64,000 nucleotides of DNA from Trichlorobacter ammonificans. Lineage in GTDB: Bacteria; Desulfobacterota; Desulfuromonadia; Geobacterales; Pseudopelobacteraceae. The position numbers were made by a program, and so were the translations under genes. The notes beneath the pieces are model-generated. The model did not search any database. It was not told where the DNA came from and worked only from the letters and a program-made list of their open reading frames with translations. Positions 32,355 through 51,688 of this stretch are shown here, one piece after another (position 1 is the first letter of the stretch; every line of letters begins with the position of its first letter). The DNA is taken from contig NZ_OW150024.1 in NCBI RefSeq assembly GCF_933509905.1, forward strand, positions 2,220,001-2,284,000, in the 5' to 3' direction.

Positions 32355-32383
32355 TTGACATTTGCGGACCCCATTGCTACAAC
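32355..32383 (+). promoter_or_regulatory. Promoter of the cobalamin-riboswitch operon
   Basis: TTGACA at 32355-32360, 17 bases, then TACAAC at 32378-32383. The predicted start (about 32390) is just ahead of the aptamer. Confidence 0.65.
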
Positions 32384-32485
32384 GGGTCACTATTCGCGTC
32401 GGACCAGGGGAAGGAGGTGCAAATCCTCCGCTGTCCCGCAGCCGTAACAGGAACTGTTTCCTGAAGCCGGAATGCCTGCCCGATG
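32384..32485 (+). promoter_or_regulatory. Cobalamin (AdoCbl-type) riboswitch aptamer
   Basis: Carries the conserved B12-box chain in order: AGGGGAA, GGAGGTGCAAATCCTCC, GCTGTCCCGCAGCCGTAA, a short variable hairpin AGGAACTGTTTCCTG, and AAGCCGGAATGCCTGCC. It lies in the leader of cobU. The expression platform is most likely the terminator at 32698; a repeat element is inserted between the two. Confidence 0.93.
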
Positions 32486-32501
32486 CATGCTTTACCGAAG
32501 A

Positions 32502-45820: not shown

Positions 45821-46282
45821 ATGATCATTTCAAAAAAGACCACATACGCCCTGAAGGCGCTGCACTATCTGGCCGAGCAGCCAGGCGACCAACCGGTCCT
45901 GATTGCCGACTTGGCCAAGGCAGAGAATATTCCGAAGAAGTTTCTGGAGTTCATCCTGCTCTCCCTGCGCAAGGGGGGGATTCTGCAGAGCAGGATCGGC
46001 AAAGGGGGTGGCTACTCGCTGGCCCAGCCGGCGAACCGGATCAGCATCGGCTCGATCGTTCGCATCCTGGAGGGGGATACGGCGCCGGTTCCCTGCCTCG
46101 GCAGCAGCAAGAGTCGCTGCGATGAATGCCGGGATGAAGCCACCTGCGGCATCCGCCTGATCATGAGCGATGTGGACCGTGCCCTTTCTCAGGTACTGGA
46201 CTCTTTGACCCTGGCCGACATGGTGGAGCGCAGCGAGGCGGAGCGCAGCAAGCGCCGCAATATCGTTGACTTCAGCATATAA
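45821..46282 (+). CDS. Rrf2-family regulator (CymR/IscR type)
   Basis: 153 aa. Winged helix [20 protein letters not shown] with recognition helix [19 protein letters not shown], and [16 protein letters not shown]. Four cysteines near residue 91-110 ([18 protein letters not shown]) could bind an Fe-S cluster as in IscR. The gene sits 60 bases before cysK, so control of cysteine synthesis, as CymR does in Firmicutes, is the simplest reading. There is no Shine-Dalgarno in front of the ATG. Confidence 0.88.
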
Positions 46283-46341: not shown

Positions 46342-47295
46342 ATGAGCAGAATATTCCCCGACAACTCGCAATCAATCGGCAACACCCCGCTCGTCAAACT
46401 GAACCACGTTACCGAAGGGGCCAAGGCAACCGTCCTGGCCAAGATTGAGGGACGCAACCCGGCCTATTCGGTCAAATGCCGCATCGGCGCCAACCTGATC
46501 TGGGACGCCGAGAAGCGCGGCGTCCTCAAGCCCGGCGTGGAGATCATCGAACCCACCTCCGGCAACACCGGCATTGCCCTGGCCTACGTGGCCGCGGCCC
46601 GTGGCTACAAGCTGACCCTGACCATGCCGGAGACCATGAGTATCGAGCGCCGCCGGGTGCTGGCAGCCCTGGGGGCCAACCTGATCCTCACCCCCGGCGC
46701 CGAAGGGATGAAGGGGGCCATCAACCGGGCCGAGGAGATCGCCGCTTCCGATCCCCAGAAATATTTCATCCCCCAGCAGTTCAAGAACCCGGCCAACCCG
46801 GAGATCCACGAACTGACCACCGGGCCGGAGATCTGGAACGACACCGACGGCGGCGTTGACGTGCTGGTTTCCGGGGTCGGCACCGGCGGCACCATTTCCG
46901 GGGTATCCCGCTACATCAAGAACATCAAGGGGAAGAAGATCGTTTCCGTTGCCGTGGAGCCGAAGGAGAGCCCGGTGATCAGCCAGCATCTGGCCGGCCA
47001 GCCGCTGCAGCCCGCGCCCCACAAGATCCAGGGGATCGGCGCCGGATTTATCCCTGAGACCCTTGACCTGTCCGTGGTGGACCGGGTGGAACAGGTGGAG
47101 AGTGCCGAGGCGATCGAATTCGCCAAGCGGCTGGCCAGGGAGGAGGGACTGCTGGTGGGTATCTCCAGCGGTGCCGCCGCAGCCGCAGCCGTCCGCCTGG
47201 CCTTTCTGGAAGAATTTGCCGGCACGACCATTGTGGTGGTGCTTCCCGACGGCGCAGAACGCTATCTCTCAACCGCGCTCTTCGAGGGACTGTAA
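46342..47295 (+). CDS. cysK: Cysteine synthase A (O-acetylserine sulfhydrylase)
   Basis: 317 aa. PLP lysine in [12 protein letters not shown], the substrate loop [19 protein letters not shown], and the PLP-phosphate site [15 protein letters not shown]. It makes cysteine from O-acetylserine and sulfide. Its stop overlaps the yezD start (TAATG). Confidence 0.97.
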
Positions 47296-47477
47296 TGGAG
47301 GGTACCCGGCCCGACCCTTGGAATCGGGAGGTGGAACGGCTGGTGCGGGAAACGCTGTCCTCCCTCCGGTTCGGCACCGTCACGCTGGTGGTGCAGGACG
47401 GCCGGGTGATCCAGGTTGACAAGAGCGAGAAGATTCGTGTTATCCGAACCGGTCATATTGACGGCAGTGGAATCTGA
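47295..47477 (+). CDS. yezD: YezD-family small protein (DUF2292)
   Basis: 60 aa. The pattern VRETLSSLRFGTVTLVVQDGRVIQVDKSEKIR is the DUF2292 core. Such genes often lie with sulfate/cysteine genes; here it overlaps the cysK stop, so the link to sulfur metabolism is by context. Confidence 0.9.
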   Translation: MEGTRPDPWNREVERLVRETLSSLRFGTVTLVVQDGRVIQVDKSEKIRVIRTGHIDGSGI

Positions 47478-47480
47478 ACC

Positions 47481-47771
47481 ATGAACATCCGCAGGACCAT
47501 CATCGTGCATGGCCTGGTGCAGGGGGTTTCCTTCCGCAAACAGAGCCAGCAAGCCGCACGGCAACTCGGCGTAAACGGCTGGGTGCGCAACCGCTCCGAC
47601 GGCACTGTGGAAGCCTGCCTGGAAGGTTCGGAGACCGCCGTTGCCGCCCTGATTGCCTGGTGTCACGCCGGCCCGAAGAACGGGATTGTCACCGACGTCC
47701 GGGTGACCGACAGTGGTGATCCCGAGGGACATGACGATTTCGTGATCCGCGAGGATCATAGGGCCGCCTGA
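47481..47771 (+). CDS. acyP: Acylphosphatase
   Basis: 96 aa. The phosphate loop GLVQGVSFRKQSQQAA keeps the catalytic Arg, and GWVRNRSDGTVEACLEG contains the catalytic Asn. It hydrolyses carboxyl phosphates. It follows yezD by three bases and ends the rrf2-cysK run. Confidence 0.94.
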   Translation: MNIRRTIIVHGLVQGVSFRKQSQQAARQLGVNGWVRNRSDGTVEACLEGSETAVAALIAWCHAGPKNGIVTDVRVTDSGDPEGHDDFVIREDHRAA

Positions 47772-47838
47772 ACAGGCCACGGTATGGTATGGCTGCCTGT
47801 CGGAACGACCCGCTGAACCGGAAACATACGCTGACTGA

Positions 47839-47900
47839 CTGGAAAACCGGAGGTCAAATGGAGCCGCGGCAACACGCCCGGCTCTGTTTGACCTCTTTTC
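47839..47900 (+). promoter_or_regulatory. Stem-loop/terminator unit 1
   Basis: A small stem CTGG-AAAA-CCGG (47839-47850) followed at once by AGGTCAAA..GAGCC/GGCTC..TTTGACCT and CTTTTC. The first unit of a three-member family (see 48041 and 50579). It may simply terminate the acyP transcript. Confidence 0.6.
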
Positions 47901-48040
47901 GTTTCCACACAACAGAGGCGGCATGGGTAGCCTCTCAACATTACCCTTGGCACAACTCCAAGCAATCGCCAACGTGCTCGGCTACTGACCGCAAGGAGCT
48001 GTTACCGCAGCAGTAACACCGCTGTACCACCATACGCTGA
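47901..48040. other. Gap between hairpin units 1 and 2
   Basis: No supportable gene. There is a GTTAC-CGCAGCA-GTAAC hairpin at 48001-48017. Units 1 and 2 share upstream words (CCGCTG, CATACGCTGAC), as if a segment had been duplicated. Confidence 0.5.
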
Positions 48041-48097
48041 CCAGAAAAACTGGAGGCCGGAGAACCTGCTTATTGCAACAGGATTTCCGGCCTTTTT
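48041..48097 (+). promoter_or_regulatory. Stem-loop/terminator unit 2
   Basis: CCAG-AAAAA-CTGG small stem, then AGGCCGGA..CCTG/CAGG..TTCCGGCCT and TTTTTC. The small-stem pairs differ from unit 1 but remain complementary. It lies 68 bases before the propeller-lipoprotein start. Confidence 0.65.
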
Positions 48098-48164
48098 CTA
48101 TGATGAAACAATTCAACCATCTTCGGTTTTACCGGAGAGGAGATCACGCAAGGAGGTTTTACAG

Positions 48165-49808
48165 ATGAAGAAGTTCACCAAGATGGCAGTGGCAGTCATG
48201 GCTGTCTCCGCTCTCGCCGTGACCGGCTGCGGCAGTTCCGGATCCGGGTCCGGCCCGGCAGCGGCAGTGAAGACGGTAACCATTAACGGCCAGGTGTCGG
48301 GTGTTGCCATTCCGGCTGCCGCAACCAAGTCGGCGGCCGGGGCGGTCGGTACCGTCACCGCCCTTGACGCGGCAACCGGCAAGGTCATCAGCTCACCCGC
48401 CACCGCCGACATCAGCGCTGACGGCAGCTTCAGCATCAAGATCGCTCCGCCCGCCGGCCAGACAACCGTTGTGCTGAAGGCAACCGTGAACGGCAGCAGC
48501 TATCGCCTGCTTATCACCGAGCAGCTTGCTGCCGACGCGACCGTTTCCGGCAAGCTGGTCGGTCCCGACTCCGAAAGCACCGCCGCCCTTGTCCTGACCG
48601 ACGACGACAAAATCAAGACCGGCGTCGATGTGCAGAAGACCCTTGAGCGGACCAGGTACGGCTACGTCATCAACACCGGTGGCGGCAAGGGAGCGGGTAT
48701 CTCGGTCATCGACCGGGCCAGCACGGCAGTTGTCAAGACCATCAACTTTACGTTTGCTCCGTCCTCCAACCACTTCGGCAACATCACCGCCGACGGCAAG
48801 GAACTGTGGCTCTGCACCAACAAGACCGGCGCAGCCGGTGACGTGAACGTCTTCGACCTGGACAAGCTGCGGGACGTTTCCTCCGTCACCGCGGAGAACA
48901 AGGCCACCTTCATCATCAAGTCCTGGGAAGGGGTCGGGTGCGGCGTACAGAACACCCAGTCCCCCAGCGGCCAGTATATCTTCATCTCCTCCGACCAGTC
49001 CCCCAAGGGGATCAACGTCTTTGACGTGCAGAAAAAGTGGTATCTGGGCAACATTGCCAACGAAAACACCGCCCCTCACGTTGGTGCGATTTCCAGCGAC
49101 AACAAGACCTACTACACCACCACTGCCGGCAACTCCCATACGGTGGCCTACGACATCGAGCATCTTGGCCATATCGCCACCACCGAGTCCGCCATTGCGC
49201 CTGAAACCAGGAGAAAACTTGAACTGCCCAAGGTGCTGGACATTGACTTCGGCTATGGCAACCTCCACGCCCTGAGGCTGCATCCCGGCCAGAAACACCT
49301 CTTTGTTGGCAACAACACCTGGCCGGTTCCGGCGGGCAAAACCAACACCTCCGGCACAAACGTCATCGATCTGACCACCAGGAAGATCATCGCCAGGATT
49401 GACGGCCGCCCCCACAACTACGCCGTATCGCCGGACGTGAAGTATCTGCTCTCCACCGAGCTCCCGGGACAGGATTGCGACGTGGCGATCCTCCCGACGC
49501 TCGAAACAGGTAATCGCTTGCAGTTCATCGACATTGCCACCCTGCTTGCCGCAACTCCGGATGTAAGCAAGCTCAAGGCTATCTACCATTTCTACACGCC
49601 GAACGAAGGCGGCAGCCACGCCGCCTGGGACTTGACCACCGGTATCCTCTACTACTCCATCTACGCCAACGCCGACGGCCAGGGGTATCTCTACGCCCTC
49701 AACACCGCCGGTCTGTCGGCGGCAACCCCCAGTGTTGTCCAGTTGAGCAAGACCAAGATCGGCTGGAGCCCCCACGGGGTCTCCTTCCCCGGCGTCAACG
49801 GCGACTAG
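48165..49808 (+). CDS. Beta-propeller lipoprotein
   Basis: 547 aa with a lipobox ALAVTGCG and a Gly/Ser linker. Residues ~38-130 look like a carboxypeptidase-regulatory-like or FnIII-type beta domain. From ~160 a WD40/YVTN-like propeller follows, with repeats of the form 'YVINTGGGKGAGISVIDRAS', 'NHFGNITADGKELWLCTNK' and 'PSGQYIFISSDQ'. Cysteines are scarce, and no heme motif is seen. It is probably a surface or periplasmic scaffold or metallo-binding protein. The ribosome site is AAGGAGG. Confidence 0.8.
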   Translation: MKKFTKMAVAVMAVSALAVTGCGSSGSGSGPAAAVKTVTINGQVSGVAIPAAATKSAAGAVGTVTALDAATGKVISSPATADISADGSFSIKIAPPAGQTTVVLKATVNGSSYRLLITEQLAADATVSGKLVGPDSESTAALVLTDDDKIKTGVDVQKTLERTRYGYVINTGGGKGAGISVIDRASTAVVKTINFTFAPSSNHFGNITADGKELWLCTNKTGAAGDVNVFDLDKLRDVSSVTAENKATFIIKSWEGVGCGVQNTQSPSGQYIFISSDQSPKGINVFDVQKKWYLGNIANENTAPHVGAISSDNKTYYTTTAGNSHTVAYDIEHLGHIATTESAIAPETRRKLELPKVLDIDFGYGNLHALRLHPGQKHLFVGNNTWPVPAGKTNTSGTNVIDLTTRKIIARIDGRPHNYAVSPDVKYLLSTELPGQDCDVAILPTLETGNRLQFIDIATLLAATPDVSKLKAIYHFYTPNEGGSHAAWDLTTGILYYSIYANADGQGYLYALNTAGLSAATPSVVQLSKTKIGWSPHGVSFPGVNGD

Positions 49809-49839
49809 GCACACCTATCCGGCTTCAGAAACAAAGGTC

Positions 49840-49862
49840 GGCTGTCCCGACGGGGCAGCCGG
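49840..49862 (+). terminator. Weak hairpin after the propeller lipoprotein
   Basis: GGCTGTCCC/GGGGCAGCC followed by CTGTTTGT. A modest terminator at best. Confidence 0.45.
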
Positions 49863-49912
49863 CCCTGTTTGTCACCTGCACCTGGGCAGAGGAAACAAAG
49901 GAATTTATCGAA

Positions 49913-50482
49913 ATGAACATACAGCGTATCAAAATAGCCGCAACCGCTCTGCTGTCGGCCCTGTTGCTTCTGGCCGGCTGCGGCGGCGGAGGCGGTACCC
50001 CGGCCCCCACACAGCCGCCCACCGTTGCCGCCCCCACCGGCGTAACGGCCACCGGCGGCACAAACCAGGTAACGCTTGCCTGGAACCCGATCAACGAGGC
50101 CGACTCCTACACCATCTACTGGTCATCAACGCTGCCGTTGACGAAAGCCAACGGCACCAGAATAGAAGGGGCCGTTTCTCCGTATCTCCACAGCGTTACG
50201 GTGAGCCAAACCTACTACTATTTCGTAACCGCCGTTAAAAACGGCGTGGAAAGTGAACCGTCGGCACAGGCGTCAACGGTCTCCGCCCACAACGGCGAAG
50301 CCCTCTACGCCACCAATTGCAGCGGCTGCCACGGTCCCCTTGCCGCTCCCACCTTTCATGATCGCACCTTTGCGGGAATCAAGGCAGCCATAGCCGCAAA
50401 CAGGGGCGGGATGGGCGTTTTGAGCAGCCTGACCGACACCGAGATTGCCAACATCGTGCTCGTACTGCCCAACCATCATTAA
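49913..50482 (+). CDS. Lipoprotein with fibronectin-III domain and monoheme cytochrome c domain
   Basis: 189 aa. Lipobox LLLLAGCG, Gly-rich linker, an FnIII domain (PTGVTATGGTNQVTLAWNPINEADSYTIYWSS) and a C-terminal class I cytochrome c with CSGCH and a distal Met candidate in GGMGVLSSL. An outer-membrane electron carrier is likely. It sits between the propeller lipoprotein and the rhodanese lipoprotein. Confidence 0.85.
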   Translation: MNIQRIKIAATALLSALLLLAGCGGGGGTPAPTQPPTVAAPTGVTATGGTNQVTLAWNPINEADSYTIYWSSTLPLTKANGTRIEGAVSPYLHSVTVSQTYYYFVTAVKNGVESEPSAQASTVSAHNGEALYATNCSGCHGPLAAPTFHDRTFAGIKAAIAANRGGMGVLSSLTDTEIANIVLVLPNHH

Positions 50483-50578
50483 AATATAATATCTATTGAT
50501 GTTATATTTTTTAATTGACGAACCCGTAGCGCCGATGGTAGGGTGTCACCATCTCTGACGGCATCATCCAACGACCGA

Positions 50579-50646
50579 CCGGACAAACCGGAGGTCAAGG
50601 AACATGCGGCCACCGCCGCCCCTGTTTCTTGACCTCCGGTTTTTTT
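50579..50646 (+). promoter_or_regulatory. Stem-loop/terminator unit 3
   Basis: CCGG-ACAAA-CCGG small stem, then AGGTCAAG..GAAC/GTTTC..CTTGACCT and TTTTTTT. Here the terminator stem extends through the 3' CCGG (CCGGAGGTCAAG/CTTGACCTCCGG), so the small stem and the terminator are mutually exclusive. It lies 53 bases before the rhodanese ATG. Confidence 0.7.
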
Positions 50647-50698
50647 GTTGCAGCACCGTCCGCCGTCGATACTTCAACCAGAAAAAGGAGACCCCCTG

Positions 50699-51688
50699 AT
50701 GAAACTGCGCACTGTACGAGGCATTGTCGGCTCCCTGATGGCGCTTGTCGCCGTGACGGCACTGTTTGGCTGCGGCAGCAGCAGCGAAAGTACCGCTGCC
50801 GCCGTGACCCCGCCGCCGGCCACGGTGGCCAAGGCGGTGGAAACCTTCACCACCACCGACGCCCTGGCCGCCAGCCAGCAGAATGTCCTGATCGTCGATG
50901 TCCGTTCCGCGGCCAACTACGCCGCCGGCCATATCCCCGGCGCCATCCGCAACACCGTGTCGATCAACTCGACCACGGCCTCCGCAACCGGTTCGGCGGG
51001 CACCCTGGGACTGACCCAGGCGGAGTTCGTCTCCCTGGCCAATACCCTGGGCATCACCCCCTCCACCAAGGTGGTGGCCTACGATACCGACAACAGCTCG
51101 TCGGTGGGGCGTTTCGTCTGGACCCTGCTCCGCTATGGCCATAAGAATGTCGCCATCCTTGACGGCGGTTACCAAAAATGGGTGGCGGAAAAACGCCCCA
51201 CCACCACAACGGCCACCCTGCCCACGGCGAATACCGTCTCCTACGCAGTATCGAGCGTTGCGGACATCGACGTGAGCGCCGACTACGTTCTGTCGAAGAT
51301 CAATACGCCGGGTTACGTTATCTGGGATTCCCGCAGCGTCCTCGAATATATCGGCTACGACCTGCGGACCAACCCCCGGGGGGGCCATATCCCCTATGCC
51401 GTCAGCCTCGACTGGACCAACCTGCAGACCCAGGATGCAAACGGCGTCTCTGTACTGAAGAGCAGTACTGAAATCCTGGAGCTGCTGAAGGAGCACGGCA
51501 TTACCCCGGACAAGGAGATCATCATCTACTGCCAGGCCGGGGTCCGCTCTTCCTACTCCTCCGACACCCTGCTGGGTCTGGGTTTCACCAAGGTGAAGAA
51601 CTACACCGGCTCGTGGGGGGAATGGAGTGCGGCGCTGAAGTCCGACGGCAGCTACAAGTATCCGGTTTCCACCGGCACCAATCCGTAA
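50699..51688 (+). CDS. Rhodanese-like lipoprotein (ExtH-like)
   Basis: 329 aa. Lipobox TALFGCG, then two rhodanese domains. The first (VDVRSAANYAAGHIPGAIR) lacks the active Cys. The second carries CQAGVRSS. The start at 50699 has AAGGAG eight bases upstream. It recalls the lipoprotein rhodanese ExtH of Geobacter, next to a beta-barrel gene as here. Likely sulfur or selenium transfer at the outer membrane; the acceptor is unknown. A CCGGTCCG/CGGACCGG hairpin follows at 51704-51741. Confidence 0.85.
   Translation: MKLRTVRGIVGSLMALVAVTALFGCGSSSESTAAAVTPPPATVAKAVETFTTTDALAASQQNVLIVDVRSAANYAAGHIPGAIRNTVSINSTTASATGSAGTLGLTQAEFVSLANTLGITPSTKVVAYDTDNSSSVGRFVWTLLRYGHKNVAILDGGYQKWVAEKRPTTTTATLPTANTVSYAVSSVADIDVSADYVLSKINTPGYVIWDSRSVLEYIGYDLRTNPRGGHIPYAVSLDWTNLQTQDANGVSVLKSSTEILELLKEHGITPDKEIIIYCQAGVRSSYSSDTLLGLGFTKVKNYTGSWGEWSAALKSDGSYKYPVSTGTNP

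Follow-up and report, generated by a model that had tools for sequence, protein, structure and literature searches.

A 24-nt hairpin element overlapping terminators in leaders of predicted sulfur genes of Geobacterales and its association with DUF2292/OscA proteins

The ribonucleic antiterminators (RATs) of BglG/LicT are small imperfect hairpins that overlap the 5' arm of a terminator and need a protein to win. In ANTAR antitermination, hairpins with dual hexaloop stems are bound by protein before terminators in several leaders. Here, we describe a 24-nt RNA element that occurs as three units in a window of Trichlorobacter ammonificans (the whole stretch analyzed, 64,000 nt; contig NZ_OW150024.1, positions 2,220,001 to 2,284,000) and that shares features with both. 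As in RATs, the hairpin of the element overlaps the 5' arm of a terminator and is proposed to need a protein, but it differs in sequence and size, its proposed partner is a DUF2292/OscA protein, and its targets form a predicted sulfur regulon. CAT_RBD (PF03123) is absent from the T. ammonificans genome, setting the element apart from RAT systems. As in ANTAR systems, hairpins precede terminators in several leaders of one regulon, but the element has one stem and an A-rich loop of 4–6 nt rather than two hexaloop stems. The only ANTAR gene of the genome is at 79 kb and the elements cluster at 2268–2299 kb; proximity therefore does not connect them.

Two sulfur-related systems are also close. The S-box (the SAM-I, or S-adenosylmethionine, riboswitch; RF00162) likewise occurs in sulfur and methionine leaders and acts through terminator control, and in Cytobacillus it precedes yezD, with the element coming after that gene. 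Its model, however, has 108 positions versus the 24 nt of the element, which has no Rfam match. OscA is a small protein reported in 2009 to act in the sulfur-starvation response and chromate resistance, and oscA-sbp is tied to that response (PMC2996968, PMC3596284). The window encodes a protein of the same family, assigned via NF033785 (below the equivalog cut-off) and DUF2292, with sulfur starvation as the shared theme; unlike the reading proposed here, the passages on Pseudomonas OscA in these two accounts name neither a partner RNA nor a mechanism. For Bacillus subtilis YezD, the function is listed as unknown. No description of the element or its pairing with DUF2292 was found in the open-licence literature. 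Five riboswitch candidates, two of them yjbM and nifV, were derived from a Geobacter genome (PMC11109978); the element may have been listed earlier, unexplained, among the other candidates of that study or among multicopy intergenic sequences of Geobacter/Pelobacter.

Covariation and exclusive folds of the element

Each unit consists of a 4-bp stem with an A-rich loop of 4–5 nt, abutted by AGG(T/C)C, which starts a strong terminator (table 1). This recurring layout had been described in the first-pass annotation, and all three units are found where it placed them, at 47839, 48041, and 50579. Terminators of units 1, 2, and 3 fold strongly (z-scores of -5.7, -4.8, and -8.1 for stretches trimmed to the units, whose stability was matched by 0 of 200 shuffles). 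The words CCGCTG and CATACGCTGAC, also noted there, are indeed common to units 1 and 2; GCTGAC inside the latter is part of the family consensus. The three units belong to a conserved RNA class with the core X1X2X3-UGA-CCAG-ANAAA-CUGG-AG-GYC, in which GYC doubles as the foot of the terminator stem. The unpaired UGA, the A's of the loop, and AG are strongly conserved, and across 93 aligned rows there is a single stem with a loop of 4–6 nt.

Copies of the element are clustered in T. ammonificans and widespread in its order. A covariance model (CM) identified seven copies in all in the 3.06-Mb genome (E<=0.05), and a pattern search placed the four further good copies no more than 31 kb from unit 1. 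With at most one mismatch, the pattern GACYRGAMAMACYGGAGGYC has six matches in this genome versus none for a reversed-pattern control, and 162 matches in 60 of 141 genomes of the order versus 18 for the control (table summed by hand). Strong CM matches (E<=1e-5) are present in 61 of the 141 genomes. Neither the units nor the element has an Rfam 15 match above gathering, and a lenient search gave eight hits below gathering, the best with an E of 2; GEMM and other known riboswitches were dropped as candidates for the units because no family fits at either level. Those non-clustered pattern matches in T. ammonificans that were inspected (L001, L005, L006, and L007) were also rejected, having no terminator and appearing by eye to be coding. 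The pattern had no match in the viral_contigs set. Separately, chance may explain a weak CM hit (19 bits; L034, 5376-5399) close to where a hydroxylase-like gene begins.

The suggestion in the first-pass annotation that changes in the small stem keep pairing extends to the family. When the small stem was left free, all four pairs form at 112 of 119 sites anchored on only [TC]GA, spacing, AGGYC, and the terminator, though these are the loci of the A2 rows, which came from a scan requiring a paired small stem, and were fetched with a pattern that loosely constrains it. At position 3 of the stem, 109 sequence-selected sites have A-U (77), G-C (29), G-U (2), or a mismatch (1). Compensatory combinations include CCAG/CUGG, CCGG/CCGG, CUGG/CCAG, and UCAG/CUGA, and the variant GGU...ACC at L097 retains the hairpin and its terminator.

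Just upstream of UGA, X2X3 can pair with the bases that open the terminator stem, and the two sides covary. In the same 109 sites, for which outer pairing was unused in selection, the X2-Y pair is G-C in 85, A-U in 15, G-U in 7, and A.C in 2. A scan for the stem, AGGYC, and a terminator, covering 80 fetched stretches plus earlier loci, gave 124 distinct hits; 115 with UGA, CGA, or UCA before a stem starting with C were kept and nine dropped. In this 115-element set, likewise selected without regard to outer pairing, the counts are 92, 14, 7, and 2, and none of 10000 shuffles, which ignore kinship although several copies are orthologous, matches the Watson-Crick total. X2 is G where the foot is GCC, and A (or G, as a wobble) where it is GUC. 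An alignment of 93 sequences has two-sided changes in seven of seven pairs and 51 double-change cells versus 15.0 in shuffled alignments (0 of 500 as high). It comprises 70 distinct cores plus 23 rows, distant and mismatched ones included; most of the added rows came from a scan requiring X2/X3 pairing and the others, among them the mismatched ones, were picked by eye. For the 70 cores and the 93 sequences alike, the double-change total and covariation score exceed those of all 500 shuffles.

Because X2X3 pairing occupies the foot of the terminator, an antiterminator fold is available in general. The first-pass annotation was thus right that the folds are mutually exclusive and attenuator-like, but this is not confined to unit 3, whose CCGG arm is one special case of a general exclusion that works through the nucleotides 5' of UGA. 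Median energies are -5.4 kcal/mol for the extended hairpin and -25.1 kcal/mol for the terminator, and in 0 of 115 elements is the extended hairpin more stable. Two hallmarks of an attenuator were found, namely an alternative fold that excludes the terminator and has covariation support, and a terminator that precedes a coding start on the same strand.

Positions of elements also bear on what they are. A same-strand open reading frame (ORF; at least 60 codons) starts no more than 350 nt downstream of 112 of 115 elements, and no more than 100 nt downstream of 93. With ORFs this close, the elements are mostly not terminators at the 3' ends of unrelated operons, in keeping with the leader position given in the first-pass annotation. 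It is highly improbable that the elements are nothing more than intrinsic terminators carrying a decorative stem, or that they are a DNA operator: the terminators are real and the small stem is palindromic in DNA, but compensatory changes in a stem are unexpected for a DNA site, and the elements sit in leaders.

Judged by family assignments, the targets are mostly sulfur genes and not envelope genes as such, the theme proposed in the first-pass annotation. Downstream ORFs were picked mechanically, and one representative of each larger cluster was named by Pfam or NCBIfam. The largest clusters of first ORFs are rhodaneses (15), NifH-like or other P-loop ATPases (15), metK (11), the lipoprotein family of the window (8 elements), and NifX-like proteins (8). 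Smaller ones are ATP-binding cassette (ABC) ATPases, O-acetylhomoserine sulfhydrylase, DsrE, NifB-like, nitrite/sulfite reductase-like, and Rrf2 proteins, and there are about 14 single ORFs, some probably spurious. SsuA-type ABC proteins and nitrogenase-like reductases are also among the targets; nitrogenase-like enzymes have been reported in sulfur metabolism (PMC12552129, PMC11423573). Of the four further copies in T. ammonificans, one lies before an O-acetylhomoserine sulfhydrylase gene, one before a gene for a MetQ-type transporter, and one before a DsrE-family gene; the fourth precedes a rhodanese gene, behind which are ABC-transporter and cysK-like genes.

DUF2292/OscA as the proposed partner

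A DUF2292/OscA gene neighbors the units of the window but had gone unnamed in the earlier annotation. Its product scores 58.5 bits against PF10055 (gathering, 22 bits) and 31 bits against NF033785, "sulfur starvation response protein OscA" (equivalog cut-off, 85), and is thus related but not an equivalog; YezD of Cytobacillus is also below that cut-off (36.7 bits). Residues R25, Q34, Q40, K43, K46, and R48 are each at least 80% conserved among 91 sequences. The viral_contigs set holds no relative of the window protein, and a match there to Cytobacillus YezD (L189) was rejected as chance similarity inside a longer unrelated protein.

Presence of DUF2292 correlates with that of the element. Across the 141 genomes, DUF2292 is found in 56 of 61 with a strong element and in 8 of 80 others (both, 56; element only, 5; DUF2292 only, 8; neither, 72; Fisher 2e-24; genome and genus sets transcribed by hand from match lists), and of the 64 genomes with DUF2292, 56 contain at least one strong element. 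Permutation within genera gave a mean of 36.2 and a maximum of 45 co-occurrences, with 0 of 5000 reaching 56. At a looser cut-off (E<=1e-3), the four classes number 60, 10, 4, and 67. The phi with the element is 0.81 for DUF2292 versus 0.21 for each of DsrE_2 and DUF2325, control families that also have members outside the element clusters. DUF2325 was rejected as a partner given this weak correlation.

The two are also adjacent. In 45 of 93 sequence-distinct DUF2292 genes of the order (fragment G108:C379 left out), an element lies no more than 120 nt past the stop codon, against an expectation of about 0.3. The expectation comes from reversed sequence, in which the same definition, with X2/X3 pairing required in both cases, gave 28 hits in 1.14 Mb. 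Five more have an element within 700 nt, and two have too little sequence. The median distance from stop to element is 49 nt when all adjacent cases are counted, also those of other lineages.

In the model we propose, the units act as transcription attenuators that belong to a sulfur-starvation regulon and are controlled by a protein. In the default state, RNA polymerase would halt at the terminator, whose stem begins with AGGYC. In the alternative 24-nt hairpin, X2X3, and often X1 too, would capture the GYC foot, and the terminator hairpin that is left would stop several bases short of the T run. Because the 24-nt hairpin is weak alone, it would require a partner, for which we propose the small DUF2292 protein (OscA/YezD family). 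When sulfur is scarce, DUF2292 would accumulate and bind the hairpin, leading to read-through into sulfur-scavenging genes. A default terminator, a hairpin that steals its foot, an adjacent gene for a small protein, and a starvation regulon together fit protein-dependent antitermination, and the proposed ON direction leans on what is reported of OscA in Pseudomonas as part of the response to sulfur starvation (PMC2996968, PMC3596284). What comparison of genomes establishes is a covarying RNA with two exclusive folds, its regulon, and a DUF2292 gene that co-occurs with it and is often adjacent; that OscA/DUF2292 binds the hairpin and antiterminates sulfur-scavenging operons upon sulfur starvation is probable. 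The regulatory logic is a known one, and the RNA and protein family are apparently new.

Two other readings share parts of this evidence. A minimal riboswitch, in which the 24-nt hairpin binds a sulfur metabolite such as O-acetylserine, a thiol, or S-adenosylmethionine and DUF2292 is merely co-regulated, would account for the leader position, the exclusion of the terminator, the strongly conserved unpaired UGA, loop A's, and AG, and the presence of metK, metY, and MetQ among the targets. We consider it unlikely, since 24 nt is very small for an aptamer, terminator-less copies exist beside DUF2292, and the link to DUF2292 (correlation and adjacency) is far tighter than for the two control families. 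Alternatively, another RNA-binding protein could antiterminate, with DUF2292 only sensing or modulating, as five element genomes without detectable DUF2292 and its lack of a recognized RNA-binding fold would allow. This is a rather doubtful prospect, because no alternative candidate emerged among the families tried, with CAT_RBD missing from T. ammonificans and its sole ANTAR gene far from the cluster.

Distribution beyond the order and points of tension

The pairing of the element with DUF2292 is not limited to Geobacterales but is seen again in other families of its phylum and in Bacillota. In a phylum sample of 297 genomes, the element (E<=1e-3) is in 10, DUF2292 in 19, and both in seven, four of them outside the order (G166, G200, G262, and G333). 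Copies in G200, G262, and G333 lack a terminator but directly follow DUF2292, and in G166 the element with its terminator precedes a metK-like ORF 25 kb from the DUF2292 gene. Matches in G283, G359, and G413 have no DUF2292 in the genome and no terminator behind; the frames around them are free of stops for 428, 925, and 148 codons, but real elements also lie in such frames, and frames alone therefore cannot decide these cases. In other families, DUF2292 is followed by an element with a terminator at L167 and L168 and without one at L163, L165, L166, L169, and L170-L172, by tandem elements at L174, and by an element before a cysK-like gene at L178. No element follows the DUF2292 genes at L177, L179, L180, and L181, and a match at L176, 680 nt from DUF2292, is probably chance. 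Terminator-less elements beside DUF2292 lie near the next start codon (L163, L165, L166, L169, L170-L172, and L174, where the second copy touches the start region); in some lineages, such elements may exert translational control. In the distant family f85 (L178, L179, and L181), DUF2292-like proteins have two tandem domains, and the gene for one of these proteins is followed by an element and a cysK-like gene.

In Bacillota, the CM found an element on a plasmid of Cytobacillus spongiae (E 1.6e-5), where the order is SAM riboswitch, yezD, element with terminator, phosphoadenylyl-sulfate reductase, a gene annotated as a phosphate transporter, and sat. A Niallia plasmid has a variant, spotted by eye ∼20 nt past yezD, with a compensatory stem change and a terminator.

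Several observations weigh against the proposed model. The X1 pair is present in only 48 of 93 aligned sequences. For 41 of the 93 DUF2292 genes of the order, no scored element lies within 700 nt, about six of these genes carrying a degenerate copy by eye. In five genomes that have strong elements, a search to E<=10 still gave no DUF2292 above cut-off, despite completeness of 98% (G008, with five elements), 99% (G099), 99% (G103), 92% (G131), and 88% (G119). Among nine plasmid loci outside the phylum, the CM finds the element only in Cytobacillus; it does not report the Niallia copy, and it detects no element at the DUF2292 loci of Novosphingobium (two), Paenibacillus (one), and Priestia (four). 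The AlphaFold model of DUF2292, from two sequences, is moderate (predicted local distance difference test of 67), and Foldseek returned nothing at E<=0.001, so no RNA-binding fold was recognized. Finally, co-occurrence could mean only that both belong to one sulfur regulon.

We regard as evenly poised the broader proposal that DUF2292/OscA/YezD proteins form a new antiterminator family that binds RNA sequence-specifically at its own 24-nt target hairpin, controls the scavenging of sulfur in two phyla or more (Bacillota and the phylum of Geobacterales), feeds forward on its own operon, and has transcriptional and translational versions. A defined RNA target makes the function of the DUF2292 family directly testable. 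If the proposal is true, a 60-residue protein and a 24-nt RNA together read a sulfur regulon that includes nitrogenase-like enzymes.

Features of the window

Table 1. Units and surrounding genes. Units 1, 2, and 3 are all among the rows that built CM R1.
Feature	Position	Strand	Sequence or family	Basis
Rrf2-family regulator, upstream of cysK-like and DUF2292 genes	45821..46282	+	PF02082	
Cysteine synthase-like pyridoxal phosphate enzyme	46342..47295	+	PF00291	
DUF2292/OscA-YezD family protein, 60 aa, proposed RNA-binding antiterminator	47295..47477	+	PF10055	E 5e-16
Acylphosphatase between DUF2292 and unit 1	47481..47771	+	PF00708	
Unit 1 core hairpin	47833..47855	+	GAC-UGA-CUGG-AAAA-CCGG-AG-GUC	CM R1 32 bits; sequence
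Unit 1 small stem; then AGGTC	47839-47850; 47851-47855	+	CTGG-AAAA-CCGG	sequence
Unit 1 terminator	47851..47899	+	stem AGGUC...GACCU, then T run	fold, sequence
Unit 2 core hairpin, tandem with unit 1	48035..48058	+	CGC-UGA-CCAG-AAAAA-CUGG-AG-GCC	CM R1 40.1 bits
Unit 2 small stem; then AGGCC	48041-48053; 48054-48058	+	CCAG-AAAAA-CTGG	sequence
Unit 2 terminator	48054..48097	+	AGGCC...GGCCU, T run	fold
Lipoprotein behind units 1 and 2 ("propeller-type" in the first-pass annotation)	48165..49808	+	no Pfam hit	
Lipoprotein-like gene with c-type cytochrome domain, next downstream of the 48165..49808 lipoprotein	49913..50482	+	PF13442	
Unit 3 core hairpin	50573..50596	+	GAC-CGA-CCGG-ACAAA-CCGG-AG-GUC	CM R1 35.8 bits
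Unit 3 small stem; then AGGTC	50579-50591; 50592-50596	+	CCGG-ACAAA-CCGG	sequence
Unit 3 terminator	50585..50646	+	long stem AAACCGGAGGUC...GACCUCCGGUUU, T run	fold
Rhodanese lipoprotein-like gene behind unit 3	50699..51688	+	PF00581	

Homologs of the lipoprotein behind units 1 and 2 are preceded by two tandem units in Geomonas limicola and Geomonas silvestris and by one in Geomesophilobacter sediminis. Tandem elements were seen in the window (47833-48058) and at L031 (4796-4911), L033 (4791-4909), L097 (5014-5113), and L174 (1644-1704); such an arrangement could sharpen the response.

Promoter regions of four units of T. ammonificans (L008, L010, L004, and window 50480-50520) have in common an AT-rich block, ATTTTT(T)NATTGAC, at a -35-like TTGAC(A/G), which is possibly the site of the Rrf2/CymR-like regulator. 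Between the lipoprotein and cytochrome genes, a strong GC-rich hairpin followed by CTGTTTG (49836-49864) lies outside the element family. Elsewhere in the window, a cobalamin riboswitch is present at 32367-32497, above the Rfam gathering score.

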